From IMG/VR virus record IMGVR_UViG_3300027714_002764, positions 113,021 to 177,020 of that record: a stretch of DNA of 64,000 nucleotides. The stretch is one strand, 5' to 3'. Below are positions 7,939-26,938 of the stretch, one piece after another. Position numbers and translations under genes: made by a program. The notes beneath the pieces are model-generated. The model was given only the letters and a program-made list of their open reading frames with translations. It was not told where the DNA came from and did not search any database. Every line of letters begins with the position of its first letter. The first letter of the stretch is position 1. Source of the stretch: a virus.

Positions 7939-9654
7939 ATGGGAATAGACGTAGACACTGCAACTTGGGAGGTAGGTAAAGATTATCCTGAGTGGATGAA
8001 TGAAGTTTCATTAGCAACAATATCGAAAGGTTACTTACTACCGGACGAAACTCCAAAAAAGGCATATAAACGTGTTGCAGATACAATTGCCAAAAGATTA
8101 GATCGACCTGATCTAGCGAATAAGTTTTTCCGCTATATGTGGAAAGGTTGGTTGAACTTAGCCTCACCTGTTTTATCTAATACCGGTACAGATAAGGGAC
8201 TCCCAATCTCTTGTTTCGGTATAGATACCCCAGATTCAATAAGAGGAATAGGTCTTACTAATGCTGAACTAATGAGACTTACTTCTTTAGGAGGAGGAGT
8301 TGGAATTGGACTATCTAAAGTAAGAGGTAGAGGAGAACAGATCGGAAGAGAAGGAATAGGACAATCAGAAGGAGTTATTCCTTGGGCAAAGATTTATGAT
8401 TCTACTATTATTGCAACTAATCAAGGTGCAGTAAGAAGAGGAGCCGCTTCTGTAAACCTAGACATTAATCATCCAGATATTAAAGAGTTTCTAGAGATAA
8501 GAAGACCTAAAGGAGACCCTAATAGACAGTGTCTAAACCTACATCAATGTGTTGTAGTGGATGATACATATATGCAAAAATTAGAGCATAGAGACCCTGA
8601 TGCAATGGAATTATGGGTGACTATACTGAAGTCTCGAATGGAAACAGGTGAACCCTATATTATGTTTAAGGATAATGTTAATAATGCAAATCCTGCTGCA
8701 TATAAAAAGAACAACTTGGATGTAAGTATGACTAATATATGCTCAGAGATTACACTCCACACAGACGAAGAGCATTCGTTTATATGCTGTTTATCTTCAG
8801 TTAATCTAACTAAATGGCATGAATGGAAAAATAGCGATTTAATAGAAACTGCTATATACTTTTTAGACGGAGTACTAGAAGAGTTTCTTGATAAAGTATC
8901 AGGAAGAGAATCACTAGTAAGAGCAGCAAGATCAGCTAAAAAAGGAAGAGCTATTGGACTCGGAGTACTGGGATGGCATACATTCTTACAGAACGAAAGA
9001 ATTCCTTTCGCATCTTTAGCTGCTACCTCTTATACTCATCAGATATTTTCACAAATAAAAAACCAATCAGAAGCAGCTTCAAGAAAGTTAGCAGACGAGT
9101 ACGGGGAACCTCTTTGGTGTAGAGGAACTGGAATGAGAAATACCCATACTCTAGCTATAGCACCAACAGTTTCTAATAGTACGATCGTAGGAGGAATATC
9201 TGCAGGAATCGAACCAATACCAGCTAACATATTTACGTTTAATTCAGCTAAAGGAACATTTATAAGAAAAAACTCAGCTTTAGAGTCTTACCTTGAAGGA
9301 AAAGGATCAAACACAGAAGAAGTATGGGATCAAATAATGAAAGATAGAGGGTCTATAGCTAATCTACCTGAAAGTGTTATGCCACATGAAGATAAACCTA
9401 TATTTCTTACTTTTGCAGAAATAAATCAATTGCAGTTAGTAGAACAGGCAGCAGCTAGACAAAAGTATATAGATCAAACACAATCTCTTAATTTAGCTTT
9501 CGATCCTACGGATAGTCCTAAGTTTATTAACGAAGTACATCAAACAGCTTGGAGATTAGGAATAAAAACACTATATTACCTACGTACTGATAGTGTAATC
9601 AACGGAGACATTGGAAGTAGAACGGATGAGAACTGTTTAAGCTGTGATGGTTAA
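7939..9654 (+). CDS. nrdA: Ribonucleotide reductase class I large subunit (R1)
   Basis: The active-site cysteines are present in the expected order: CFGID, NICSEITL (Asn, radical Cys and Glu), CCLSSVNL, then the radical-transfer pair in LYYLRT and a C-terminal redox pair in NCLSCDG. The protein is 571 residues and begins almost directly with the reductase N-terminal region, so the usual ATP-cone domain of about 90-150 residues is missing. That would remove classical dATP feedback inhibition, a trait that suits a phage. The C-terminal cysteines would be re-reduced by a thioredoxin such as the one at 10394. Confidence 0.93.
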   Translation: MGIDVDTATWEVGKDYPEWMNEVSLATISKGYLLPDETPKKAYKRVADTIAKRLDRPDLANKFFRYMWKGWLNLASPVLSNTGTDKGLPISCFGIDTPDSIRGIGLTNAELMRLTSLGGGVGIGLSKVRGRGEQIGREGIGQSEGVIPWAKIYDSTIIATNQGAVRRGAASVNLDINHPDIKEFLEIRRPKGDPNRQCLNLHQCVVVDDTYMQKLEHRDPDAMELWVTILKSRMETGEPYIMFKDNVNNANPAAYKKNNLDVSMTNICSEITLHTDEEHSFICCLSSVNLTKWHEWKNSDLIETAIYFLDGVLEEFLDKVSGRESLVRAARSAKKGRAIGLGVLGWHTFLQNERIPFASLAATSYTHQIFSQIKNQSEAASRKLADEYGEPLWCRGTGMRNTHTLAIAPTVSNSTIVGGISAGIEPIPANIFTFNSAKGTFIRKNSALESYLEGKGSNTEEVWDQIMKDRGSIANLPESVMPHEDKPIFLTFAEINQLQLVEQAAARQKYIDQTQSLNLAFDPTDSPKFINEVHQTAWRLGIKTLYYLRTDSVINGDIGSRTDENCLSCDG

Positions 9655-11016: not shown

Positions 11017-11832
11017 ATGGCAAAAAATGTTGTAATATCCTTATCGGGAGGGATGGATTCCTCTACTTTACTACTCAGATGTTTATCAGAGTATGACAAT
11101 GTAACTGCAATATCTTTCGATTACGGTCAAAAGCATAAAGTAGAGCTTGAAAGAGCACAATCGTTAGTAGATTACCTAAATGAGAAAGATTTTGGTATCA
11201 AGTACCAGGTAATTAAACTAGACGGATTAGTAAACTTACTAAATTCAGCACTTACTGAAGGAGGAGCAGATGTACCTGAAGGTCATTATGAACAGGATAA
11301 CATGAAAGCTACAGTAGTACCTAATAGAAACAAAATATTTGCTTCGTTAGTACAAGCAGTAGCTCTATCAGAAGCAATGGCTAATGGTAATAATACAGAT
11401 ATTGCATTAGGTATACATGCAGGTGATCATGCAGTATATCCAGACTGTAGACAAGAGTTTAGAGATGCAGATGACAATGCCTTTAGATTAGGTAATTGGG
11501 AAGCAGATAAGGTAGGGTATTTTACACCTTATTTAGAAACAGACAAATTTGGAATATTAAAAGATGGACAACAATTGGTTGAAGAGCTCGGAATTGTTTT
11601 TAATGAAGTGTACAAACGTACTAATACTTCTTATAAGCCCTATCCTAGCGGTAATAGCGATTACAAATCAGCATCATCTGTTGAAAGGATTGAAGCTTTT
11701 ATCGCACTCGGTGTGGATGACCCTGTACAGTACGAGAACGAAACTGGACCGGTTGATTATAATGTTGCGAAAGCACATGTAGAAAAAATACTAGTCGACT
11801 ACAGTACTGCTGCAGAATTAGGTTATTCTTAA
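11017..11832 (+). CDS. queC: 7-cyano-7-deazaguanine (preQ0) synthase
   Basis: The N-terminus has the PP-loop ATP pyrophosphatase motif SGGMDS at residues 9-14, and the family context IALGIHAGDHAVYPDCR and a C-terminal region with YPSGNSDYKSA is typical of QueC. The enzyme converts 7-carboxy-7-deazaguanine to preQ0 using ATP and ammonia. In the window it is joined by FolE, QueD and QueE (the earlier steps) and by QueF and DpdA (later steps). The usual four-Cys zinc site near the C-terminus is not obvious here. At 271 residues it is slightly longer than bacterial QueC. Confidence 0.88.
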   Translation: MAKNVVISLSGGMDSSTLLLRCLSEYDNVTAISFDYGQKHKVELERAQSLVDYLNEKDFGIKYQVIKLDGLVNLLNSALTEGGADVPEGHYEQDNMKATVVPNRNKIFASLVQAVALSEAMANGNNTDIALGIHAGDHAVYPDCRQEFRDADDNAFRLGNWEADKVGYFTPYLETDKFGILKDGQQLVEELGIVFNEVYKRTNTSYKPYPSGNSDYKSASSVERIEAFIALGVDDPVQYENETGPVDYNVAKAHVEKILVDYSTAAELGYS

Positions 11833-11860: not shown

Positions 11861-12637
11861 ATGAAATTTATTAGAGCCCTATGGGGAGATTTAGAACATC
11901 ATGATAGTAAACCAAGAAAAGAAATTATAAGATGCTCTAAAGAACAAAGATTTGATGAAGTAGTGTTCGTATGGGGCGAAAGCAATTATGATTTTATTAA
12001 ATCTTTTGGGTATGAAGCTATATTAATGTCTAAAGATCCTTATGAGTACGGAACACACTACTTCTATGAATCACATACTTTTTTCCTGCATAAGCTTGTA
12101 GCTATAAAGACTGGAGTAGAGCTATACGAACAAATTATATTTCTTGACTGGGATATTTACCAACAGAAACCACTTGATTTTAATTTTTATAGTAGGTTAG
12201 AAGAGCAAAACAGTAAACTTCAAATACCTCTTTATTGTTTTCCTAATAACTACGAAGAGTATGTTCTTAAAGAATGGAAAGATATAAGCAGGGAAGATAT
12301 AAAATACTTACATAAACACCAATCTGTACTCCAGAAATATAATTGGCAATGGGCAAACAACGTAGTAGTTCCTAACACATCCTTTGTATACTGCTCAGAT
12401 CTAAGCATAGCTGAGGAATTTATTAGAATAAATCAAGAAGAAGATATTGAAATAGTAAGCGATGAAACGCCTGTAATGCATTATTTTTTAAATCAAGGTA
12501 CAACGCTAGAGGCTTATATTAAGAAGTATGAGCCTTTAGTATCTAACGCAAAATTTGAAACTCATTTTAAACAAAAAGATTTAAATGACTATATAAAGTT
12601 ATTTATAAGTAAAGATTTATACTTTATACATGAATAA
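11861..12637 (+). CDS. GT-A type glycosyltransferase-like protein
   Basis: The segment IIFLDWDIYQQKPLDF holds a DxD-like metal and nucleotide-sugar site (D-W-D) typical of GT-A folds, and the N-terminus (KFIRALWGDLEHHD) starts like a Rossmann strand. The protein (258 residues) is soluble. It overlaps the radical SAM gene by 8 nt and is the first of four tightly overlapping genes. The acceptor is unknown: a phage DNA base, a virion protein or a cell-surface glycan are all possible. Confidence 0.6.
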   Translation: MKFIRALWGDLEHHDSKPRKEIIRCSKEQRFDEVVFVWGESNYDFIKSFGYEAILMSKDPYEYGTHYFYESHTFFLHKLVAIKTGVELYEQIIFLDWDIYQQKPLDFNFYSRLEEQNSKLQIPLYCFPNNYEEYVLKEWKDISREDIKYLHKHQSVLQKYNWQWANNVVVPNTSFVYCSDLSIAEEFIRINQEEDIEIVSDETPVMHYFLNQGTTLEAYIKKYEPLVSNAKFETHFKQKDLNDYIKLFISKDLYFIHE

Positions 12638-13673
12638 AAAGGATTATATATGTGCAAATCCTTTCGTAAATTTAGAAGTCCATGATAAAACAAGTTTTTT
12701 ATGTTGCCCTGCTTGGGTTAGCAAAAAATTACCAGAAAACATATCACCATTAGAAGCTTGGAACTCTAAAGAAGCGAATGAAATTCGAGATTCTATTCTC
12801 GATGGTTCTTATAGGTACTGTGATGAAAATCTTTGTTCACTACTTTCCGGCTTAAGAGACAAAACTGCACCTAAAGTGATCCGTCCAATGGTAGACAGAG
12901 GGAAGCTACCTGATACTTTACAAAATACAATTAACGACTATAAACAAGGTAAACCTATATACCCTAATACGGTTCAATATTCCTTTGATTATACCTGCAA
13001 TTTAAAATGCCCTACCTGCAGAGTGGAAATTATTACTGCTAATAAGTCAACTATAACTAAAGTACAAAAGACTATAGAAGAGATAGAAGAGAGTTTAGGA
13101 GAGTACGTACAACTACTGTCTTTAACAGGAACCGGTGATCCTTTCGTATCAGTAGGATTTAGAAACTTCTTAAAGAACTTCGATAAAAGTAAGTATCCAA
13201 ATCTCTACTGGATACACCTTCATACTAACGCTACTAAGTGGAATAAAAAAATGTGGAATAGTATGTCTAACGTACATGAATACGTAAAGAGCACTGAGGT
13301 ATCAATTGATGCAGCTACTCAAAATACTTATGAAAATAAAGTAAGGTTAGGAGGAAAATGGAAAGAACTTATAAGTAATTTAAACTATATATACACCATT
13401 CCTACCTTAAAACATATAAAAACCTCTTTTGTTGTGCAAAATAGTAATTATCATGAAATGGAAGACTTTATTGAGCTAATAGTTGGTATATGTAAAGAAA
13501 AATCGGATATTTACTTTAGTAGACTTATTAATTGGGGTACTTTTAGTGAAGAAGAATTTAAAGAGCATAATATATTTGATACTTCCCATAGAAACCATGA
13601 AGATTTCGTTAATACTATAAAAAGAATTTTACCACAAGATAAAGTTCACAATAATTTCTCAGAACTGTTATGA
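12630..13673 (+). CDS. Radical SAM protein with N-terminal Cys cluster
   Basis: The radical SAM [4Fe-4S] motif CNLKCPTC (CX3CX2C) lies near residue 122, followed by LTGTGDPF, which corresponds to the GGE-type SAM-binding region. An N-terminal cluster with CANPFVNLEV and LCCPAW resembles half of a SPASM-type auxiliary domain placed before the core. The protein would generate a 5'-deoxyadenosyl radical for an unknown substrate. It sits between a glycosyltransferase and a carbamoyltransferase, with 8-nt and 4-nt overlaps, suggesting one pathway. The ferredoxin at 18993 and the SAM genes at 33.7-35.7 kb could support it. Confidence 0.8.
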   Translation: MNKKDYICANPFVNLEVHDKTSFLCCPAWVSKKLPENISPLEAWNSKEANEIRDSILDGSYRYCDENLCSLLSGLRDKTAPKVIRPMVDRGKLPDTLQNTINDYKQGKPIYPNTVQYSFDYTCNLKCPTCRVEIITANKSTITKVQKTIEEIEESLGEYVQLLSLTGTGDPFVSVGFRNFLKNFDKSKYPNLYWIHLHTNATKWNKKMWNSMSNVHEYVKSTEVSIDAATQNTYENKVRLGGKWKELISNLNYIYTIPTLKHIKTSFVVQNSNYHEMEDFIELIVGICKEKSDIYFSRLINWGTFSEEEFKEHNIFDTSHRNHEDFVNTIKRILPQDKVHNNFSELL

Positions 13674-15331
13674 AGCAATTAGGAATATCCGCATTTTATC
13701 ACGACGCTGCAGCTTGTATACTAATTGACGGAAAAGTCAAAGTAGCAGTAGAGGAAGAAAGATTTACTGAAATTAAACATGACTTATCTTTCCCAATTAA
13801 TGCTATAAACTTCTGTTTAGAAGAAGAAGGACTAACCATAAAAGATATAGATCAAGTATGCTGGTATGAAGACCCAATTATTAAAAAAGATAGAGTACTT
13901 ACTACGTTTAATAAGAAATTTTTTAGGACGTATTTTCAAAGACGAAAGTTTCTTAAAGAGCAAAAAATACACGATATTAAGTTGCTTTTACAGAATATGG
14001 GATTCACCGGAGAGATTGTATATACTCCTCACCATGCTTCTCATGCTGCTTATAGTTACTATACCTCTCCTTATATTGATTCAGCAATTTTAACTATTGA
14101 TGGAGTAGGAGAATGGGAAACAGCTACTGTATCATTAGGTATAGGTAATAGAATAGAAAAGAAAGTTTCAATTGATTTCCCTAATTCACTAGGTATGTTT
14201 TACTCAACTATTACTTCGTTTCTAGGCTTTAAACCTAATGAAGGCGAGTATAAAGTTATGGGATTAGCACCTTATGGAGACCCAAGCAGGTATAAAGAGA
14301 AGTTAGCTAGTGTATTTGAAAATACTACTAATAAATTCTATATTAAACAGAAGTACTTTACATGGGAATACTCAGATAAAATTATGTTTAATAAAAAACT
14401 AGCTTCACTTTTAGATCTACCTCCTAGATTACCTGAAGAAAAAGTTACTCAAGAACATAAAGATTTAGCAGCAGCATTACAAAAAATATATGAGATACAG
14501 TTTTTAAAACTTGTAGAAAGAACAAAATACTTAACTAAATCAAATAACTTATGTTTAGGAGGAGGCTGTGCGTATAATGGTGTAGCTAATACACTTGCTT
14601 ATAAGTACTTTAAGTCTATCCATATCCCTAATGCTCCATCAGATGCTGGATCAGCAATTGGAGCTTGCTTTAGTAATATTTCAACGGAGTTAAAAAGGGA
14701 AGAAAATTCAAATCCATTCTTAGGACCAGAATACAGTAATAAAGAAATTTCCAAAGAGATACAGAACTATAAAGAGCATATTCAGGCATTTAAACTATCT
14801 GATTCAAAATTAATTCAAAAAACTGCTGAGTTAATTAATAATCAAAATATAGTAGCATGGTTCCAAGGTAGAATGGAATTTGGAGCTAGAGCTTTAGGTA
14901 ATAGAAGTATCCTAGCCTCTCCATCAGATCCAGAAATGAGACAAAGACTCAACCTTATTATTAAAGAACGAGAAGGATTTAGACCCTTTGCTCCGTCTGT
15001 TATAGAGGAAGAGGCCTCCATGTGGTTCCACGTGAAAGAGAATATTCCCTATATGAATCAAGTAGTACAAGCTAAAACTAAATACCTACCTGCAGCAACA
15101 CATATAGACGGTAGCTGTAGAGTACACACTGTAACACAAGCTCAAAATAAAAGATATTATGACCTTATTAAACAAGTAGGTAGGTTATCAAATAAAGCAG
15201 TAGTACTTAATACATCTTTTAACCTAAAAGACCAAACTATTACGATGACTCCAAAACAGGCAATAGAGAGGTTTATATCTTCTAAAATTAATTTTTTAGT
15301 TATAGGTAACTTTTTAATCAGAAAAACATGA
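13670..15331 (+). CDS. NodU/TobZ-family carbamoyltransferase
   Basis: The N-terminus GISAFYHDAAACILIDG and later HHASHAAYSYYTSP, GEYKVMGLAPYG, LGGGCAYNGVAN and GRMEFGARALGNRSILASP are signatures of O-carbamoyltransferases of the NodU/CmcH/TobZ family, which use carbamoyl phosphate and ATP to carbamoylate a hydroxyl. At 553 residues both the Kae1-like and the YrdC-like C-terminal parts are present. The known substrates are sugars and antibiotics, and a related enzyme carbamoylates 5-hydroxymethylcytosine in phage DNA. No hydroxymethylase was found here, so a sugar hydroxyl made by the neighbouring glycosyltransferases is equally plausible. Overlaps both neighbours by 4 nt. Confidence 0.88.
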   Translation: MKQLGISAFYHDAAACILIDGKVKVAVEEERFTEIKHDLSFPINAINFCLEEEGLTIKDIDQVCWYEDPIIKKDRVLTTFNKKFFRTYFQRRKFLKEQKIHDIKLLLQNMGFTGEIVYTPHHASHAAYSYYTSPYIDSAILTIDGVGEWETATVSLGIGNRIEKKVSIDFPNSLGMFYSTITSFLGFKPNEGEYKVMGLAPYGDPSRYKEKLASVFENTTNKFYIKQKYFTWEYSDKIMFNKKLASLLDLPPRLPEEKVTQEHKDLAAALQKIYEIQFLKLVERTKYLTKSNNLCLGGGCAYNGVANTLAYKYFKSIHIPNAPSDAGSAIGACFSNISTELKREENSNPFLGPEYSNKEISKEIQNYKEHIQAFKLSDSKLIQKTAELINNQNIVAWFQGRMEFGARALGNRSILASPSDPEMRQRLNLIIKEREGFRPFAPSVIEEEASMWFHVKENIPYMNQVVQAKTKYLPAATHIDGSCRVHTVTQAQNKRYYDLIKQVGRLSNKAVVLNTSFNLKDQTITMTPKQAIERFISSKINFLVIGNFLIRKT

Positions 15332-15993
15332 TTTTAGCTACAACTGCAATAAATAAACCGTATACAGAATCAGCTGAAAAACTATTAAAGATATTAGATA
15401 GAAAAATATACGATATTAGAGTGTTAACCGATGATCCCGAACGGTTCAAGGAATACGATACTACAACCTATAATAATATTATATTTTCATACTACGATAA
15501 GTTGATATATGCATTTCAATTAGCGTTAAAAGAAAAACAAGGAGTACTTTTTGTTGATGCTAATAAAATACATGCAATGACACCAGACTTCCACCAGCAT
15601 TTTAAAGGAAGTGACGATTATTGTTTTGTAGGGTACTGGGACTACGGCAATTCTATATGGAAAGATACAGATATAAATGGTTCCTATTGGGACAAATTAA
15701 CAGACTACTTAAAACTTGCAGATTTCCCTATAAATTTATTAAGACCATTACTAGAAACCGTATTTTACATCCCTTACGACAGTAGGTTGAGAAATGTTAC
15801 TAAGTATATAGAGGTACTTAAACCTATAATAGAGTACAATAGTATGTTTGAGAAGTCTATTTATAACCATAGGGGCAATGGTGAAGGTATGGGAATAGCT
15901 TTTTCTTTACTACTAAATAATATAAAACCTAAGTTTTTCACTAAAAAACAAATATATGAACTTGATTCAGAAGATAAAAGCATACTTTGCTAA
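15328..15993 (+). CDS. Glycosyltransferase-like hypothetical protein
   Basis: The 221-residue protein starts like a GT-A nucleotide-sugar domain (MILATTAINKPYTESAEK) and has QGVLFVDANKIHAM, where a D-x-N replaces the usual DxD. A C-terminal NHRGNGEGMGIAFSLLL may form the acceptor side. These similarities are weak. It overlaps the carbamoyltransferase gene by 4 nt (ATGA) and so belongs to the same operon. Confidence 0.5.
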   Translation: MILATTAINKPYTESAEKLLKILDRKIYDIRVLTDDPERFKEYDTTTYNNIIFSYYDKLIYAFQLALKEKQGVLFVDANKIHAMTPDFHQHFKGSDDYCFVGYWDYGNSIWKDTDINGSYWDKLTDYLKLADFPINLLRPLLETVFYIPYDSRLRNVTKYIEVLKPIIEYNSMFEKSIYNHRGNGEGMGIAFSLLLNNIKPKFFTKKQIYELDSEDKSILC

Positions 15994-17354: not shown

Positions 17355-17515
17355 TAGAAATTTTAAAGCACGCAGTAGGCATTTGCGGGGATCATTGGCA
17401 TCCTAACGCACTTACCTTACTAGCAGGAAGTCCAATGGTATTGGCAGCAGTTACATATATAAAATGTAAATGTGGAGGAATGTTTAATCATAAAAAAAGT
17501 TGTAAGCATGAGTAA
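17351..17515 (+). CDS. Small Cys/His-containing protein, 54 aa
   Basis: The frame starts at an ATGA overlap with the previous gene and ends with an 8-nt overlap into queD. The peptide has a hydrophobic middle (ALTLLAGSPMVLAAVTYI) and a C-terminal Cys/His set (CKCGG, then C and H) that could bind a metal. The two overlaps make translation likely. Function unknown. Confidence 0.55.
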   Translation: MIEILKHAVGICGDHWHPNALTLLAGSPMVLAAVTYIKCKCGGMFNHKKSCKHE

Positions 17516-17975
17516 ATTTAAATCAACAAAAGTATTTGAAGGATTCAGTACAGTCTTTAGACAATGGAAAGCTGAAACTACTCACTGTAGGTTTTTACAC
17601 GGTTACGGTATTTCTTTTAAAATTTGGTTTGAAGGAGATTTAGACGAAAGAAACTGGGTATGGGATTTCGGAGGAATGAAAAGGGCGAAAGGGAAGATTG
17701 ATGGTATGTCTGCTAAAGAGTGGATGGACTATATGTTTGACCATACTTTTATAGTAGCCGAAGATGATCCTTTCTTAGAATCATTTAAAAAAATGGATGA
17801 TGCAGGTGTAGCTCAAATAAGAGTAATACCAGCAACAGGAGGAGAAAGATTTTCACAGTTTATATTTGATAAATTAAATCCTTTTATTGAGGCAGAAACT
17901 GAAGGAAGAGTAAAAATATCAAAAGTAGAATTTAGAGAACACGCTAAAAATACAGCAACATATGAGCCTAGGTAG
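17508..17975 (+). CDS. queD: QueD-like 6-carboxytetrahydropterin synthase
   Basis: This is a T-fold protein of about 155 residues with the QueD/PTPS order of motifs: CRFLHGY, a VWDFGGMK acidic strand, FDHTFIVAEDDP, and a C-terminal VEFREH. The catalytic Cys and the Asp-His pair are kept. Two of the usual three zinc-binding His appear replaced (Phe where the first His is expected, Tyr in HGY instead of HGH). The reaction would be dihydroneopterin triphosphate to 6-carboxytetrahydropterin, between FolE and QueE. I chose ATG 17508 because it overlaps the preceding gene by 8 nt, whereas an upstream GTG at 17472 would add residues unlike the family. Confidence 0.78.
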   Translation: MSKFKSTKVFEGFSTVFRQWKAETTHCRFLHGYGISFKIWFEGDLDERNWVWDFGGMKRAKGKIDGMSAKEWMDYMFDHTFIVAEDDPFLESFKKMDDAGVAQIRVIPATGGERFSQFIFDKLNPFIEAETEGRVKISKVEFREHAKNTATYEPR

Positions 17976-18741
17976 AGTAGTAGATTATGATAAGAATTTA
18001 CCTATTGTAGAGATATATACTGCTGTTCAATCTGAAGGATCAAGAGCAGGGTACCCTACAGTAGTAATTAGAACCACAGGATGTACTCACAGATGTTATT
18101 TTGGAGAAGGTGGCTGGTGTGATAGCTGGTATACATCAATACATCCAGATAAAGGTCAATATAACTTTAATGACATTATTAAAGCATATGAGAAAAATCC
18201 TCATATAAAAGAAATGATGCTTACAGGAGGTTCACCTTCTATGCATGGTAAACTGGTTAATGAACTAACACATTTTGCAAATGAAAAAAATATTTTTATT
18301 ACAATGGAGAATGAAGGTAGTCATTTTGTACCTACGGATTATCCTATCAATCTGCTTTCGATCAGTCCCAAGTTCTCTAATTCGGTACCTGTACTTGGAG
18401 TGGCAACACCACAAGGTAAGATTACTGACGAAAGGATGATTAAACAGCATAATAAGTTTAGACTTAATTATGATGCAATGAAAAAGAGTATAGCATACCA
18501 TGCAGACTACCATATTAAACCTGTATGGGACGGAAAGGATGATTTCGCATTACAGGAGATATTAGAATGCATAGGTATTTTAGAAGTACCTCAGGATAAA
18601 GTCTGGTTTATGCCAAGTGGAGATTCAAGAGAAGCTTTATTTAAATCTTACCCGGTACTATTTGATTGGGTTAGAGATAATGGATATAGGATGACTTGGA
18701 GACCACATATTATAGCATTTGAGGATCAAAGAGAAGTATAA
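17962..18741 (+). CDS. queE: 7-carboxy-7-deazaguanine synthase (radical SAM)
   Basis: The start VEIYTAVQSEGSRAGYPTVV is characteristic of QueE. The cluster motif is CTHRC, then seven residues, then C (CYFGEGGWCDSW), an expanded version of the standard CX3CX2C. Later parts match the family: LTGGSPSMHG and ENEGSHFVPTDYPINLLSISPK. The enzyme rearranges 6-carboxytetrahydropterin to 7-carboxy-7-deazaguanine with SAM, Mg and a [4Fe-4S] cluster. It overlaps queD by 14 nt. A ferredoxin gene 250 nt downstream could be its reductant. Confidence 0.88.
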   Translation: MSLGRVVDYDKNLPIVEIYTAVQSEGSRAGYPTVVIRTTGCTHRCYFGEGGWCDSWYTSIHPDKGQYNFNDIIKAYEKNPHIKEMMLTGGSPSMHGKLVNELTHFANEKNIFITMENEGSHFVPTDYPINLLSISPKFSNSVPVLGVATPQGKITDERMIKQHNKFRLNYDAMKKSIAYHADYHIKPVWDGKDDFALQEILECIGILEVPQDKVWFMPSGDSREALFKSYPVLFDWVRDNGYRMTWRPHIIAFEDQREV

Positions 18742-19862: not shown

Positions 19863-20576
19863 ATGGCAAAGAAGTTTATAGAAGGAACAGAATTAGTTCA
19901 AGCTGGATTCGCTAATGGTATATCCAGTCAATTAGCAAAGAAACAACTAACCGAAGGACCTGAAGCAAGGTTATCATCAGAAGAGAAACAAGAGATTATT
20001 ACTAATGCAGCAACAGCATTTGGTGACTTCTTAACCGCTCTTGGAACTGACTGGGAAAACGATCCCAACTCTTCTGATACTCCTATGAGAGTAGCTAAAG
20101 CATACGTTAATGATCTATGGAAAGGTAGATTTGAACCTTTAGACCGAGTTACAGCATTCCCTAGCGACGGCTACGACGGAATCGTACAAGAGTCTAATAT
20201 ACCTGTAACGTCAATGTGTAGTCACCACCACCAAACAATAGGTGGGACTGTTAGCATAGCCTATATTGCTTCAGAGTCTGGGAAGGTTGTTGGATTATCC
20301 AAATTAAATAGAATAGTAGAACAATTTGGAAGAAGAGGAGCCATTCAAGAACAATTAACAGTTGCCATACATAATGCTGTTAATAAAATTTGTGATGGTA
20401 ATTTAGGAGTAGCAGTTCAAATTAATGCTACTCATAACTGTGTAAGCTGTAGAGGAGTAAAGCATCAAGGAGCTTCAATGCAGACAGCTAAGTTAACAGG
20501 AGCATTTTTAGATGAGGATTCTGCAAAAGCAGAGTTTTATAAGAATATAGAATTAGCAAGTATATGCAGACATTAG
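19863..20576 (+). CDS. folE: GTP cyclohydrolase I
   Basis: The C-terminal catalytic half shows the zinc and active-site signatures: MCSHHHQTIGG, VVGLSKLNRIVEQFGRR, QEQLT and HNCVSCRGVKHQGA. The N-terminal half (about 1-80) carries the helical region including DTPMRVAKAYVNDLW. The enzyme opens GTP to dihydroneopterin triphosphate, the first step for preQ0 (and folate). Its own class 1 promoter lies just upstream. At 237 residues it is normal length. Together with queD, queE and queC it completes the route to preQ0. Confidence 0.92.
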   Translation: MAKKFIEGTELVQAGFANGISSQLAKKQLTEGPEARLSSEEKQEIITNAATAFGDFLTALGTDWENDPNSSDTPMRVAKAYVNDLWKGRFEPLDRVTAFPSDGYDGIVQESNIPVTSMCSHHHQTIGGTVSIAYIASESGKVVGLSKLNRIVEQFGRRGAIQEQLTVAIHNAVNKICDGNLGVAVQINATHNCVSCRGVKHQGASMQTAKLTGAFLDEDSAKAEFYKNIELASICRH

Positions 20577-20932
20577 AACATGATATAAGACCTTGGGGGG
20601 AGTATCAAGTTTTACTTGATAGTCCTTTTTGTAAGGTAAAAATGATTACAGTTAAACCTGGCGGACAACTATCCTATCAATCTCATAAACATAGATCAGA
20701 GACTTGGACTATAGTACAGGGAATGGCAGGATATACTTTAGATGGCTCAGATAGTGTTTTGACGGAGAAGAATACTGTTTATATACCAGAAGGAGCTAAA
20801 CATAGAATAAGAAATATTAATAACGTACAGGATAACAAAGATATGATTTTTATTGAAGTGCAGCATAGTAATGCAGGTATATTTGATGAATCAGACATAA
20901 TCAGATATGAAGATGACTATAATAGAGAATAG
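20564..20932 (+). CDS. Type II mannose-6-phosphate isomerase-like cupin
   Basis: The protein is a single cupin with the order RPWGEYQVL, VKPGGQLSYQSHKHRSETW, IPEGAKHRI and IEVQHS...DIIRYEDDY, which is the pattern of the C-terminal isomerase domain of bifunctional ManC enzymes. His residues of the metal site are in place. It would interconvert mannose-6-phosphate and fructose-6-phosphate or act on a related sugar. The guanylyltransferase domain is absent. It overlaps folE by 13 nt and may serve the glycan genes. Confidence 0.8.
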   Translation: MQTLEHDIRPWGEYQVLLDSPFCKVKMITVKPGGQLSYQSHKHRSETWTIVQGMAGYTLDGSDSVLTEKNTVYIPEGAKHRIRNINNVQDNKDMIFIEVQHSNAGIFDESDIIRYEDDYNRE

Positions 20933-21187: not shown

Positions 21188-21760
21188 ATGGGTGAGCAAC
21201 TATCATTATTTGAAGTAGAAGAAAAAGTATTACCCGTATGGGTTAACGGAGTTCCTTTCGTAGATGAAGTAGAAGAGTTTAACAAAACGTTTAACAAACC
21301 TAATAACTATGAACCAACTATCCCTAGTGAAAAAGAATGGAGATTTGTTTACGACTTTATCCTTGAAGAGCTCCAAGAATATAAAGAAGCTTGCGAAAGA
21401 GGAGACATTGTGGAAATTTTGGATGCTTTGTGCGATATTACTTATGTTTCCCTTGGGAACGGTACTATGCTACATGGCCTTAAGAACAAGATATGGCCAG
21501 CATATCAAGAAGTACAAGCCTCTAATATGTCAAAAGCTTGTGAAACTGAAAAAGAAGCCATACAGACCGTCCGCCAAAGAAGTAAGGAACAAGGTGAGGC
21601 CTGTCATTTTGAAAAGATTGAGGAAGGACGGTATATTGTCTACCGTACTAGAGATAGAAAAGTAATGAAAAGCACTAACTACTTCAGACCGGACCTTAAA
21701 CAATTCTTTACAGATGATGAAATTGTTAAAACTAGACCACAGCAACACTTAGGGATATGA
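21188..21760 (+). CDS. MazG-like nucleotide pyrophosphohydrolase
   Basis: The all-alpha NTP pyrophosphatase signature is present: EELQEYKEACERGD followed by EILDALCDITYVSLGNG and later YQEVQASNMSK (about residues 55-120). These supply the acidic Mg-binding helices of the phosphoribosyl-ATP/MazG superfamily. A basic C-terminal extension of about 70 residues follows. The enzyme would hydrolyse an NTP or dNTP to the monophosphate. Because it lies with the deazaguanine genes, clearing unwanted nucleotides is plausible, but the substrate is unknown. Confidence 0.82.
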   Translation: MGEQLSLFEVEEKVLPVWVNGVPFVDEVEEFNKTFNKPNNYEPTIPSEKEWRFVYDFILEELQEYKEACERGDIVEILDALCDITYVSLGNGTMLHGLKNKIWPAYQEVQASNMSKACETEKEAIQTVRQRSKEQGEACHFEKIEEGRYIVYRTRDRKVMKSTNYFRPDLKQFFTDDEIVKTRPQQHLGI

Positions 21761-21942
21761 ATACATGGAAAGAAAATATCGTAGTAGTAGAAGGAGTAGA
21801 AATGATCCCAGTAGAAATAGCTGAAAAAGCTATTAAAGAAGTAAGCAATTATACTGCTAAGCTTAATAATGCTGCTTTAAAAGTAGATAGCTCAATAGAA
21901 TTATTAAATAACGCTTTAAAGGAAATTAATAAAGATGATTAA
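21757..21942 (+). CDS. Hypothetical protein, 61 aa
   Basis: A small acidic, mostly helical protein joined to both neighbours by overlaps (4 nt with the MazG-like gene, 8 nt with dpdA). The second half looks like a coiled coil. Function unknown; the overlaps suggest co-translation with dpdA. Confidence 0.65.
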   Translation: MNTWKENIVVVEGVEMIPVEIAEKAIKEVSNYTAKLNNAALKVDSSIELLNNALKEINKDD

Positions 21943-22753
21943 GATTGCTCATGAATCTCCGAATAGTATTTTTGATGAAGTTCAAAGACTAACTGATTAT
22001 GACTATGCATTAGTACATTTACTAGAAGAAGATCCAGAATACTTAAGGCAGTTTGAAAAAGCAGTAAGAAAAGGAAGAGAAGTAATATTAGACAACTCTA
22101 TTTTTGAATTAGAAGAAGCCTTTGATGCTGATAAGTTTTCTAACTGGGTACAATTGCTTAAACCTACATGGTATATAGTACCAGATGCTTTAGAAAATGC
22201 TGAAAAAACTATGTCGCAAATGGCTAGCTGGTTTAAAAAGTATAATAATGTACCGGGTAAGAGTATAGGGGTGGTTCAAGGTAAGACTTATCAGGAAATT
22301 AAAGACTGTTATAAAGCTATAGATGAATTATCACCTTGTGATATGATTGCTATATCCTTTGATTATTCGTATTATACTGAGTCTTTTCCTCATCCTAATA
22401 AATACGTTAGTTGGATGCTAGGACGTGTTAAGCTACTTGGAGATTTACTTAGAGACGGTGTTATTAATAAAGATAAACCTCATCACTTATTAGGATGTTC
22501 ACTTCCCCAGGAATTTTCGTACTATAAACATTTAGACTACAGTTGGATATACTCTTTAGATACTTCAAATCCTGTAGTACACGGATTAAAAGACATAACT
22601 TACGGATCTGATGGCTTATGGAGTAAAGAATCGCAGAAGTTATTCGAACTTATTAACACAGATATTGACGATATAGAAATACCCACCGTATTAAATAATA
22701 TACAGAAATTTAGGTGGTTCGTTAATGGATCAACACCTATAGCAGGAATATGA
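21935..22753 (+). CDS. dpdA: DpdA-like DNA guanine transglycosylase
   Basis: The protein (272 residues) matches the phage DpdA branch of the tRNA-guanine transglycosylase family. Recognisable stretches are REVILDNSIFELEEAF, the IVPDALENAEKT active-site strand, KSIGVVQGKTYQEI, MIAISFDYSY, LLGCSLPQEF and IYSLDTSNPVVHG. It would exchange guanine in DNA for a 7-deazaguanine base after replication. The tRNA-type zinc site with three Cys is not evident, as expected for the phage branch. It overlaps the formyltransferase gene by 4 nt. The full supply pathway for its substrate is in the same window. Confidence 0.83.
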   Translation: MIKIAHESPNSIFDEVQRLTDYDYALVHLLEEDPEYLRQFEKAVRKGREVILDNSIFELEEAFDADKFSNWVQLLKPTWYIVPDALENAEKTMSQMASWFKKYNNVPGKSIGVVQGKTYQEIKDCYKAIDELSPCDMIAISFDYSYYTESFPHPNKYVSWMLGRVKLLGDLLRDGVINKDKPHHLLGCSLPQEFSYYKHLDYSWIYSLDTSNPVVHGLKDITYGSDGLWSKESQKLFELINTDIDDIEIPTVLNNIQKFRWFVNGSTPIAGI

Positions 22754-23319
22754 AAGATATAAAAATTAAATCTGGCAAACAAACCTGGATTGCTTTTTTC
22801 TCTCAAACAGGAGCAGAAATAGCTGATCTTGCTGAAAGCACAGGTAAGTGGCCATCCCGTATTATTACTAATGAGAGACCTAATGATGCTAGAACTATAG
22901 ATCCTAGAATAGAAGAAAAAGGATATTTTACCTTTAGTAATAAACCTAAAGTGAATGAATATCTAGACGTACTTCAGTATTTTCCAGATGCGATTATTAC
23001 ATTACACGGTTGGCTGAGAATTCTACCTTCTGAAGTTACTCAAAGCTTCAACATATTTAACGGTCATCCAGGACTAATAACTGTCTACCCAGAATTAAAA
23101 GGAAAGGATCCTCAAATTAGAGCTTTTGAAGCTAAGCATGAAGTTATGGGATGTGTAATACACAAAGTAGTAGAAGGAGTAGATGAAGGAAAAGTTCTAA
23201 AAGAAATTAGGTTTAATGCATTTAGTATAACTGAAGAAGAGATGTGGAAAGTATTTAAAGATAGGTCTCTATATCTTTGGATTGAATTTACTAATGAATT
23301 ATTCGGTAATAAAAAATAA
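22750..23319 (+). CDS. dpdN: Formyltransferase-like protein, candidate preQ1 formyltransferase
   Basis: The 10-formyl-THF transferase (PurN/Fmt) catalytic triad is in place: N104 and H106 in FNGHPGLI, and D145 in VEGVDEGKVL, with ITLHGWLRILP earlier as the folate-binding loop. The protein is 189 residues, normal for a single GART-type domain. It is coupled to dpdA by an ATGA overlap, and QueF (preQ0 to preQ1) lies close downstream. This supports DpdN, the enzyme predicted to formylate preQ1 in phage DNA. A sugar-amine formyltransferase is the alternative. The symbol is assigned by context and triad, not by a search. Confidence 0.72.
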   Translation: MKDIKIKSGKQTWIAFFSQTGAEIADLAESTGKWPSRIITNERPNDARTIDPRIEEKGYFTFSNKPKVNEYLDVLQYFPDAIITLHGWLRILPSEVTQSFNIFNGHPGLITVYPELKGKDPQIRAFEAKHEVMGCVIHKVVEGVDEGKVLKEIRFNAFSITEEEMWKVFKDRSLYLWIEFTNELFGNKK

Positions 23320-23351: not shown

Positions 23352-23873
23352 ATGACAAAGAGAATTGCGTTAGTAGGAGCTAGTAGTACAGGTAAGACTA
23401 CTGTGTATGAATTACTAAAGAATAAATTACCAAAGTACGACTTTGTTAACGAATCTACTAGAACGGTAGGTTCTTATGGTTTTCCTATCAATGAAAAAGG
23501 AACTGATGCTACTCAATTAGCTATTAGTTGTTTTCATTTAGAAGCTTTATTACAACCTTATAATCAAGTACTCGATAGATGCTTTATGGATGTTGTAGTA
23601 TATACAAGATTTATGGATAACGTATCAGAAGAGACGTGGAAATATATAGATGCTACTTGGAATAGGATTAAAAACGAGTATACTCATTATATTTATTTTC
23701 CTATAGAATTTGATTCTGTAGATGATGGAGTTAGAAGTATAAATGAAAAGTGGAGAGTAGATATTGATGAAGAGTTTAAAGCAGTATTAGAAGACGTACG
23801 TCAACCTTATTTGACGATAACTGGCTCTCCTATGCAAAGAGTAGAGCAAATATTAAATTTTATAAATGTATAA
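23352..23873 (+). CDS. P-loop kinase/AAA domain protein (NadR-like)
   Basis: The Walker A motif GASSTGKTT begins at residue 9, and the following NESTRTVGS, LDRCFMDVVVYTRF and YFPIEFDSVDDGVRS match the AAA-type kinase domain found in NadR-like and related small kinases. The role is phosphorylation of a nucleoside or similar metabolite; the acceptor is unknown. The gene is followed by an overlapping nuclease gene. Its 173 residues are the normal single-domain size. Confidence 0.75.
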   Translation: MTKRIALVGASSTGKTTVYELLKNKLPKYDFVNESTRTVGSYGFPINEKGTDATQLAISCFHLEALLQPYNQVLDRCFMDVVVYTRFMDNVSEETWKYIDATWNRIKNEYTHYIYFPIEFDSVDDGVRSINEKWRVDIDEEFKAVLEDVRQPYLTITGSPMQRVEQILNFINV

Positions 23874-24239: not shown

Positions 24240-25145
24240 ATGTCAGAAGTTAAAAATTACGAACAAGTAAAGGATATTGCATCCAAACATTTAGGAACTG
24301 TAGGCGGAGCAGGTTATAAAGATACTTACTCTCCAGAACTTTTAGTTAAGATACCAAGATATCTTAATCGAGAAGGATATGGATTAACAGGTAAGGAATT
24401 CGTAGGTGTAGATACATGGAATGCTTATGAAGTTTCTGCTATTACTACAAAAGGTCAACCTGTTGCCGGTATGGTTAAAATAGTATGTCCGGCTGATAGT
24501 GAAAACCACGTTGAGTCTAAATCGATTAAACTTTATCTTAATTCATTTAATATGACTAAGATAGGTGACAATGCAGCAGACTGCATCGCAGGAATTGAAG
24601 CAAGAATAAAGAGAGATTTAGATGAACTACTTGATACTATAACTACAGTTAGTTTCTATTCTTCTGATTTTGAAATGGAAACCTTGTCTTTTTCTGAAGA
24701 ATTCGAAGAAATTGGAGAATTAGCTAATTTAGATGCAATCGATTTTACAGCATTTAAATCAGATGCTAATCAGTTAGAAGGTTCTATTGATGCTCGAGAA
24801 CTTAAGGTTCGATCAAATTTATTACGTTCTAATTGTAGAGTAACTGATCAACCAGATTGGGGAGATATATTTATCTTTATCAAAGGAGATGAAGTACCTA
24901 CCGCAGAATCTCTTGCTAAATACATAGTTAGTCATAGAACAGTAAGTCACTTTCATGAAGAGATATGCGAAATGATTTATTCTCACTTAACAGAAAGATT
25001 CAAACCAGAACAATTAATGGTTGCTTGTCTGTATACCCGCAGAGGAGGAATAGATATTAACCCTATTAGAGCAACCCACCAAATGCTAATACCAGAGTTT
25101 TTTACTAACCCAATGTTTTGTATTAGAAAAACTCTACGTCAATAA
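24240..25145 (+). CDS. queF: preQ0 reductase (7-cyano-7-deazaguanine reductase)
   Basis: A two-domain QueF is recognised: the first T-fold domain has the family motif VESKSIKLYLNSFN near residue 92-105, and the second carries SNCRVTDQPDWG, where the Cys forms the thioimide with preQ0 and the Asp protonates it, then FHEEICEMIYSHL and RRGGIDINPIR. NADPH reduces the nitrile to the aminomethyl group, giving preQ1. At 301 residues it matches the long bacterial form. Its presence next to dpdA and the formyltransferase means that the DNA base can be a preQ1-type rather than preQ0. Confidence 0.9.
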   Translation: MSEVKNYEQVKDIASKHLGTVGGAGYKDTYSPELLVKIPRYLNREGYGLTGKEFVGVDTWNAYEVSAITTKGQPVAGMVKIVCPADSENHVESKSIKLYLNSFNMTKIGDNAADCIAGIEARIKRDLDELLDTITTVSFYSSDFEMETLSFSEEFEEIGELANLDAIDFTAFKSDANQLEGSIDARELKVRSNLLRSNCRVTDQPDWGDIFIFIKGDEVPTAESLAKYIVSHRTVSHFHEEICEMIYSHLTERFKPEQLMVACLYTRRGGIDINPIRATHQMLIPEFFTNPMFCIRKTLRQ

Positions 25146-25148
25146 GTT

Positions 25149-25973
25149 ATGAACATAGGAATTGTAGGACAAGGCTTTGTAGGTGATGCAATCTATAAAA
25201 AGTTTAAAAGCTATTATGAAGTATTTACATATGACCTAGATAAGGATAAGTGTAATTCTACTTTAGAAATTATAGTACAAAAATGCGGAATAGTATTTTT
25301 ATGCTTACCTACCCCAATGGAATCTTCAGGAGCTTGTAGTACCGATATACTAAGACAAGCATTAGACGATCTTAATTTCTTGGGGTATAGAGAAACTATA
25401 GTAATTAAGTCTACTGTACCACCGGGTACCACAGATGAATTAAACTCAATTTACTCAGATATGAGTATCGTATTTAATCCTGAATTTTTATCTGAAGTAT
25501 CAGCAGAAGAAGACTTTAAAAATACTACTAGAGTTATTTTAGGAGGTCCTAGACCTTCTACTACTTTACTTAAGCAAGTATATGTTAAAGTATTTCCTAA
25601 TGCTACTATCGTAAAAACAGGTGCAGCACATGCTGAAATGGTTAAGTACTTTACTAATGCTTTTTTAGCAACTAAAGTTACTTTTGCTAATGAAGTATAC
25701 AGGTTATGTGAAGCTATAAATCTAGATTACGATAAAGTTGTTGAATATGCTACTTTAGATCCACGTATTGGAAAAGCACATCTAGCAGTACCAGGCCCTG
25801 ATGGGGAGTTAGGCTTTGGAGGACATTGCTTACCTAAAGATCTTAACGCTTTAGTCTATTTATACAAAAGCAAAGGAATCGACCCTATTTTTTTTGAAAG
25901 CGTATTAGAACTAAATGATACAGTAAGAGAGAATAAGGATTGGTTAGAATTAAAAGGTAGAGCAGTAGTATGA
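25149..25973 (+). CDS. UDP-glucose/GDP-mannose dehydrogenase family protein, short
   Basis: An N-terminal Rossmann site GIVGQGFVGDAI, KSTVPPGTT, VFNPEFLSE and the catalytic Cys motif GFGGHCLPKDLNAL define the NDP-sugar dehydrogenase family. The protein is only 274 residues, so the third, UDP-binding domain is missing. Either it is a truncated but active dehydrogenase, as in some phages, or its substrate differs. Probably supplies a uronic acid-type donor for the phage's glycosyltransferases. It lies 4 nt after queF. Confidence 0.78.
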   Translation: MNIGIVGQGFVGDAIYKKFKSYYEVFTYDLDKDKCNSTLEIIVQKCGIVFLCLPTPMESSGACSTDILRQALDDLNFLGYRETIVIKSTVPPGTTDELNSIYSDMSIVFNPEFLSEVSAEEDFKNTTRVILGGPRPSTTLLKQVYVKVFPNATIVKTGAAHAEMVKYFTNAFLATKVTFANEVYRLCEAINLDYDKVVEYATLDPRIGKAHLAVPGPDGELGFGGHCLPKDLNALVYLYKSKGIDPIFFESVLELNDTVRENKDWLELKGRAVV

Positions 25974-26843: not shown

Positions 26844-26916
26844 AGCGCTGTAGAGCAGTGGCCAGCTCGCTAGGCTCATAACCTAGAGGTCGAAGGTTCG
26901 AATCCTTCCAGCGCAA
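26844..26916 (+). tRNA. Initiator-like tRNA-Met (CAT anticodon)
   Basis: A complete 73-nt cloverleaf folds: acceptor AGCGCTG with CAGCGCA, D stem GAGC/GCTC, anticodon stem CTAGG/CCTAG with loop CTCATAA, T stem GAAGG/CCTTC with loop TTCGAAT. Features match initiator tRNA: the 1:72 pair is unpaired (A:A), A11:U24 in the D stem, two G:C pairs at 30:40 and 31:39 (the E. coli third G:C pair is A:U here), and A72-A73 as in E. coli fMet. No CCA is encoded (ACT follows), so the host or phage must add it. Anticodon CAT also allows Ile2 or elongator Met, but the identity elements favour initiator. Confidence 0.82.
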
Positions 26917-26938
26917 CTAAATTAAATAAAGGTTATAT

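Follow-up and report, generated by a model that had tools for sequence, protein, structure and literature searches.

The phage locus analysed here very probably serves to replace guanine in DNA by a 7-deazaguanine base that is formylated on the amine of preQ1 by an enzyme of the DpdN type, the substrate, formyl donor, product, and protective role being predicted from the genes and protein models. The stretch of DNA that was analysed (the window) is 64,000 nucleotides long and corresponds to bases 113021 to 177020 of the 177,020-base virus record of a 177-kb phage. In the proposed pathway, FolE, QueD, QueE, QueC, and QueF would produce preQ1, and DpdA would exchange guanine in the phage DNA for the 7-deazaguanine. 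DpdN would transfer a formyl group from 10-formyl-THF to the aminomethyl nitrogen of preQ1, either before or after insertion, so that the base present in DNA would be 7-(formylamino)methyl-7-deazaguanine. The formylated base would most likely hide the phage DNA from host nucleases; related DNA modifications are known to protect from host restriction (PMC6884629).

Gene content of the locus

The genes folE, queD, queE, queC, and queF were all identified in the window, and the route from GTP to preQ1 is therefore complete (Table 1). The 177-kb record contains a single copy of QueC. The QueF catalytic motif (SNCxxTxQPD) reads SNCRVTDQPD in the window, with the active-site Cys and Asp residues intact. 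A preliminary description of this DNA had placed the start of the formyltransferase gene in the dpdA stop codon and queF about 1 kb downstream, and both observations hold: the ATG overlaps the TGA as ATGA, and queF, whose product contains the QueF_N and QueF domains, starts 921 bp past the formyltransferase ORF. The same description had put the gene forward as a test case; the locus is a full preQ1 operon with an orthologue in a cultured phage and not an isolated test case.

Table 1. Genes of the preQ1 and DNA modification region, with positions in the window
Gene	Predicted product	Position	Strand	Basis
queC	7-Cyano-7-deazaguanine synthase (CDG to preQ0)	11017..11832	+	PF06508, E=6.5e-40
queD	6-Carboxytetrahydropterin synthase	17472..17975	+	PTPS, E=8.9e-15; 72% to immuto QueD
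queE	7-Carboxy-7-deazaguanine synthase	17962..18741	+	phrog_2076 QueE-like, E=7e-48; 80% to immuto QueE
folE	GTP cyclohydrolase I	19863..20576	+	PF01227, E=3.6e-42
	MazG-like nucleotide pyrophosphohydrolase, syntenic operon member	21188..21760	+	PF01503, E=4.6e-11; kept in most relatives
dpdA	DNA-guanine transglycosylase, immuto/Campylobacter CP220 type	21935..22753	+	Homology, predicted fold
dpdN	Candidate preQ1 N-formyltransferase	22750..23319	+	Formyl_trans_N, N-H-D triad, predicted fold
	P-loop kinase-like protein (AAA_28)	23352..23873	+	PF13521, E=2.3e-16; synteny, conserved beside dpdA
queF	preQ0-to-preQ1 nitrile reductase	24240..25145	+	QueF_N, 1.1e-28; QueF, 4.2e-18

The dpdA product (272 amino acids) shares 73.6% identity with the protein annotated as DpdA in Flavobacterium phage immuto and 41% to 42% with its homologues in Campylobacter phages. 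It matched neither the Pfam TGT sequence model nor any other Pfam family, because this DpdA branch is too diverged in sequence for the TGT model, and the gene was consequently called dpdA on the basis of homology and fold. DpdA sequence profiles found no match among solved structures. With the AlphaFold model (pLDDT 94.5), the best Foldseek match was the TGT 2pot (E=2e-8), and the solved DpdA 7ui4 ranked fifth (E=5.9e-7), with TM scores of about 0.57 to 0.61. In the sequence comparison, D53 and D209, candidates for the two catalytic aspartates, are nearly invariant. The branch formed by the DpdA proteins of the window, immuto, and Campylobacter CP220 phages presumably corresponds to DpdA3.

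Several other genes were noted in the region. Upstream of the preQ1 genes, positions 12630 to 15331 encode a twitch-type radical SAM protein followed directly by a NodU/Nol-like carbamoyltransferase, a pair also seen in some relatives (loci L015 to L017). The ORF of unknown function located 3' of the carbamoyltransferase gene (15328 to 15990) is homologous to one at L009:8737-9417, which lies between dpdA and dpdN in L009 and L010. A mannose-6-phosphate-isomerase-like cupin is encoded in the operon region (20564 to 20932), and a UDP-glucose/GDP-mannose dehydrogenase-like (UGDH-like) gene with no match to the C-terminal domain occupies positions 25149 to 25973. A tRNA-Met (CAT) gene (26844 to 26917), located just 5' of the DNA polymerase gene, partly matches the tRNA-Met of Cellulophaga phages phi4:1 and phi17:2.

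The formyltransferase and its predicted substrate

The formyltransferase (189 amino acids) matched Pfam Formyl_trans_N with an E value of 8e-12 (45.7 bits; cut-off, 26.1), and no further formyltransferase was detected across the 177-kb record. The catalytic triad proposed earlier, N104, H106, and D145, is intact at exactly these positions and aligns with the triads of Escherichia coli PurN (N106/H108/D144), Fmt (N109/H111/D147), and ArnA (N102/H104/D140). All 115 diverse copies of the enzyme that were aligned retain the triad, as well as S18, G21, E23, P107, L116, G118, P121-Q122, H138, G147, and W177. In the AlphaFold model (pLDDT 94.3), the best structural matches were GAR transformylases (TM scores of about 0.70 to 0.78), followed closely by Fmt, ArnA, and sugar enzymes. 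The preliminary description had named a close match to sugar-amine formyltransferases as evidence against its reading; none was seen, PurN giving the best match by both profile and fold.

DpdN has the fold and the N-H-D triad in common with PurN (GAR transformylase) and differs from it in the phosphate-binding loop. In PurN, the SGNGSN loop (E. coli) binds the GAR phosphate. The corresponding sequence in DpdN is SQTGxE, with Glu at the position of PurN N13 in 115/115 copies, and the equivalent of PurN E173 is Ser in 106 of these. The score of the window protein against the PurN equivalog model (45.2 bits) does not reach the cut-off of 150.1. On the strength of the changed loop, the low PurN score, and the fold match, the protein is predicted to combine a catalytic domain like that of PurN with a substrate site of another kind.

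An ordinary PurN that boosts purine synthesis during infection would be in keeping with PurN being the closest family by both solved structure and sequence, and the immuto formyltransferase is annotated as PurN in GenBank; however, the equivalog score, the replacement of the phosphate-binding loop, and the tight linkage to dpdA and queF, which is unexpected for a purine gene, make this function very improbable. We give even less credence to an N-formyltransferase acting on sugar amines, in which the enzyme would work together with the nearby UGDH-like and cupin gene products on surface or DNA sugars. The fold is common to sugar formyltransferases, but these match less well than PurN in sequence-profile comparison (2e-8 versus 3e-15, PurN being clearly first), and the UGDH-like gene was not detected among the first 80 relatives checked, in contrast to dpdA, dpdN, and queF. 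Formylation of preQ1 by a DpdN-type enzyme, as originally proposed, is favored: the gene content, linkage, catalytic residues, predicted fold, and altered PurN phosphate site are all consistent with it.

Within the preQ1 formylation model, the order of the last two steps can be drawn in two ways. DpdN may formylate free preQ1, after which DpdA would insert the finished base, and we consider the chances of this order to be evenly balanced. DpdN is a small, single catalytic domain of near-neutral pI (6.45) without an evident nucleic-acid-binding domain, so that the free base is as likely a target as DNA, and the other steps of the preQ1 pathway act on small molecules. On the other hand, this order requires that DpdA proteins, although much alike in other respects, accept bases with a formyl or another acyl group.

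Linkage across relatives and GNAT-type genes in the dpdN position

Scans of IMG/VR yielded 316 loci with a relative of the window DpdA, forming 124 clusters at 95% identity, and DpdN was present in 115 of these clusters. For loci found through DpdA alone, DpdN occurred in 80/84 clusters with QueF. Starting from DpdN, a DpdA gene was located within 1.5 kb in 50 of the 52 testable genes, none being found in the available flank of the other two, and QueF was found in the flank in 52/54. The gene order of the window recurs in more than 100 distinct clusters, far more often than by chance. The same overlapping dpdA-dpdN pair was also identified on a Clostridiales MAG contig (L325:786-2193), with the remaining operon genes, including queF, not nearby; this pair may be supplied with preQ1 by other parts of the genome or by the host. 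Given this contig and the counts obtained in both directions, the dpdA-dpdN linkage is not confined to one phage genus. The AAA_28 P-loop kinase-like gene follows dpdA in most relatives (e.g., L089:8813-9355), even in the DpdN-less Campylobacter phage CP220, and in two relatives (L285:6530-7447 and L291:1164-2090), DpdN and QueF are separated by an ornithine-cyclodeaminase family gene.

Four DpdA clusters have QueF but no DpdN, and each of them has a GNAT-type domain in the DpdN slot. No DpdN was detected on the contigs of these clusters, which are fragments of 18 to 31 kb, and a copy may lie in another part of the genome. In L018 (6123 to 7076) and L020 (8816 to 9769), the AAA_28 kinase is fused to a GNAT domain and starts within the dpdA stop codon; the Pfam GNAT match is above the cut-off in L020 and below it in L018. 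L159 has a small GNAT-like ORF (8557 to 9009) between the kinase and QueF genes, with weak matches to Pfam (E=0.003) and to a PHROG acetyltransferase (8e-4). L164 (6918 to 8809), L163, and L082 encode an FkbH-type protein of 508 amino acids that contains a second GNAT domain, as well as a VOC protein; the FkbH match is above the cut-off in L164, and Acetyltransf_1 was matched at 4e-11 in the near-identical L082 copy. A 348-amino-acid ORF in L159 (7009 to 8052) has motifs that suggested an amidoligase, but it is not assigned as one, since it matched neither the Pfam amidoligase family nor any NCBIfam or PHROG model.

As a control, GNAT domains were sought in the unassigned ORFs of at least 90 amino acids in the DpdA-QueF interval of 109 DpdN-bearing clusters, and none was found; scans for additional GNAT lineages returned only those already seen. 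Counted by lineage, the mutual exclusivity of GNAT and DpdN gave a Fisher p value of about 4e-6, which is a guide only, as the DpdN clusters were treated as independent. In the DpdA tree, L166 (on the same contig as L020) groups with the DpdN-bearing L031 (support, 100/99) and L164 groups with the DpdN-bearing L069 (support, 100/95), whereas L159 lies apart from both types on a weakly resolved branch. Based on these placements, three independent exchanges of DpdN for GNAT would be the simplest reading.

There is about an even chance that the slot 3' of dpdA is a swappable position for acylation of the preQ1 amine, with formyl transfer by DpdN in most phages and a GNAT-type enzyme in three lineages. 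Undescribed bases, for example 7-(acetylamino)methyl-7-deazaguanine and perhaps a glyceryl- or other acyl-preQ1, would then be predicted in the DNA of some phages. A swap between amine-acylating enzyme types at one position would be expected were the aminomethyl group of preQ1 their target, and the GNAT replacement therefore independently supports an amine substrate for DpdN. Acetyl-CoA is the assumed donor for the GNAT enzymes, and a glyceryl-type acyl group for the FkbH variant would be a guess by analogy with FkbH chemistry.

Relation to known phages and modification systems

The nearest named relative of the window phage is Flavobacterium phage immuto (vB_FspM_immuto_2-6A; MW353175). The two have one gene order in common from QueD to GroEL, with the sequence QueD, QueE, PRTase, FolE, MazG, DpdA, formyltransferase, kinase, QueF, and DNA polymerase. 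However, the formyltransferases are only 47% identical, and the window has additional QueC, SNase, cupin, and UGDH-like genes compared to the immuto operon. In Campylobacter phage CP220, a DpdA that is 41% identical to that of the window is followed by a P-loop kinase, but, unlike in the window, there is no DpdN or QueF beside DpdA. A high level of dADG modification is reported for Campylobacter phages (cited in PMC6884629). In a phage QueF system reported previously, QueF leads to dPreQ1 in DNA, as proposed here, with no formyl step reported.

DpdN was reportedly named by Cui et al. in 2023 (NAR) as a predicted dPreQ1 formyltransferase encoded with dpdA in phage, and its predicted product is said to be 7-(formylamino)methyl-7-deazaguanine in DNA. 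We take the window formyltransferase to be of this type, and the immuto formyltransferase presumably belongs to the published set. The window gene would belong to a known, little-tested kind, DpdN being the closest, with the tie made through the immuto orthologue. The likeness consists in a dpdA-linked phage formyltransferase with the same predicted product; the window sequence is new and comes from an uncultured phage. Also new here is the GNAT-type replacement of DpdN in relatives, which at present suggests, as a prediction, further DNA bases.

PreQ1 operons with a formyltransferase gene are common in environmental phages, and comparison of this locus with its relatives strongly supports the assignment of DpdN. 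Because acetyltransferase-type enzymes naturally take the place of DpdN, the question of its substrate becomes directly testable, and new DNA bases are predicted. The replacement also suggests that phages may vary the acyl group that caps preQ1 in their DNA, perhaps as a way to keep ahead of host defences.
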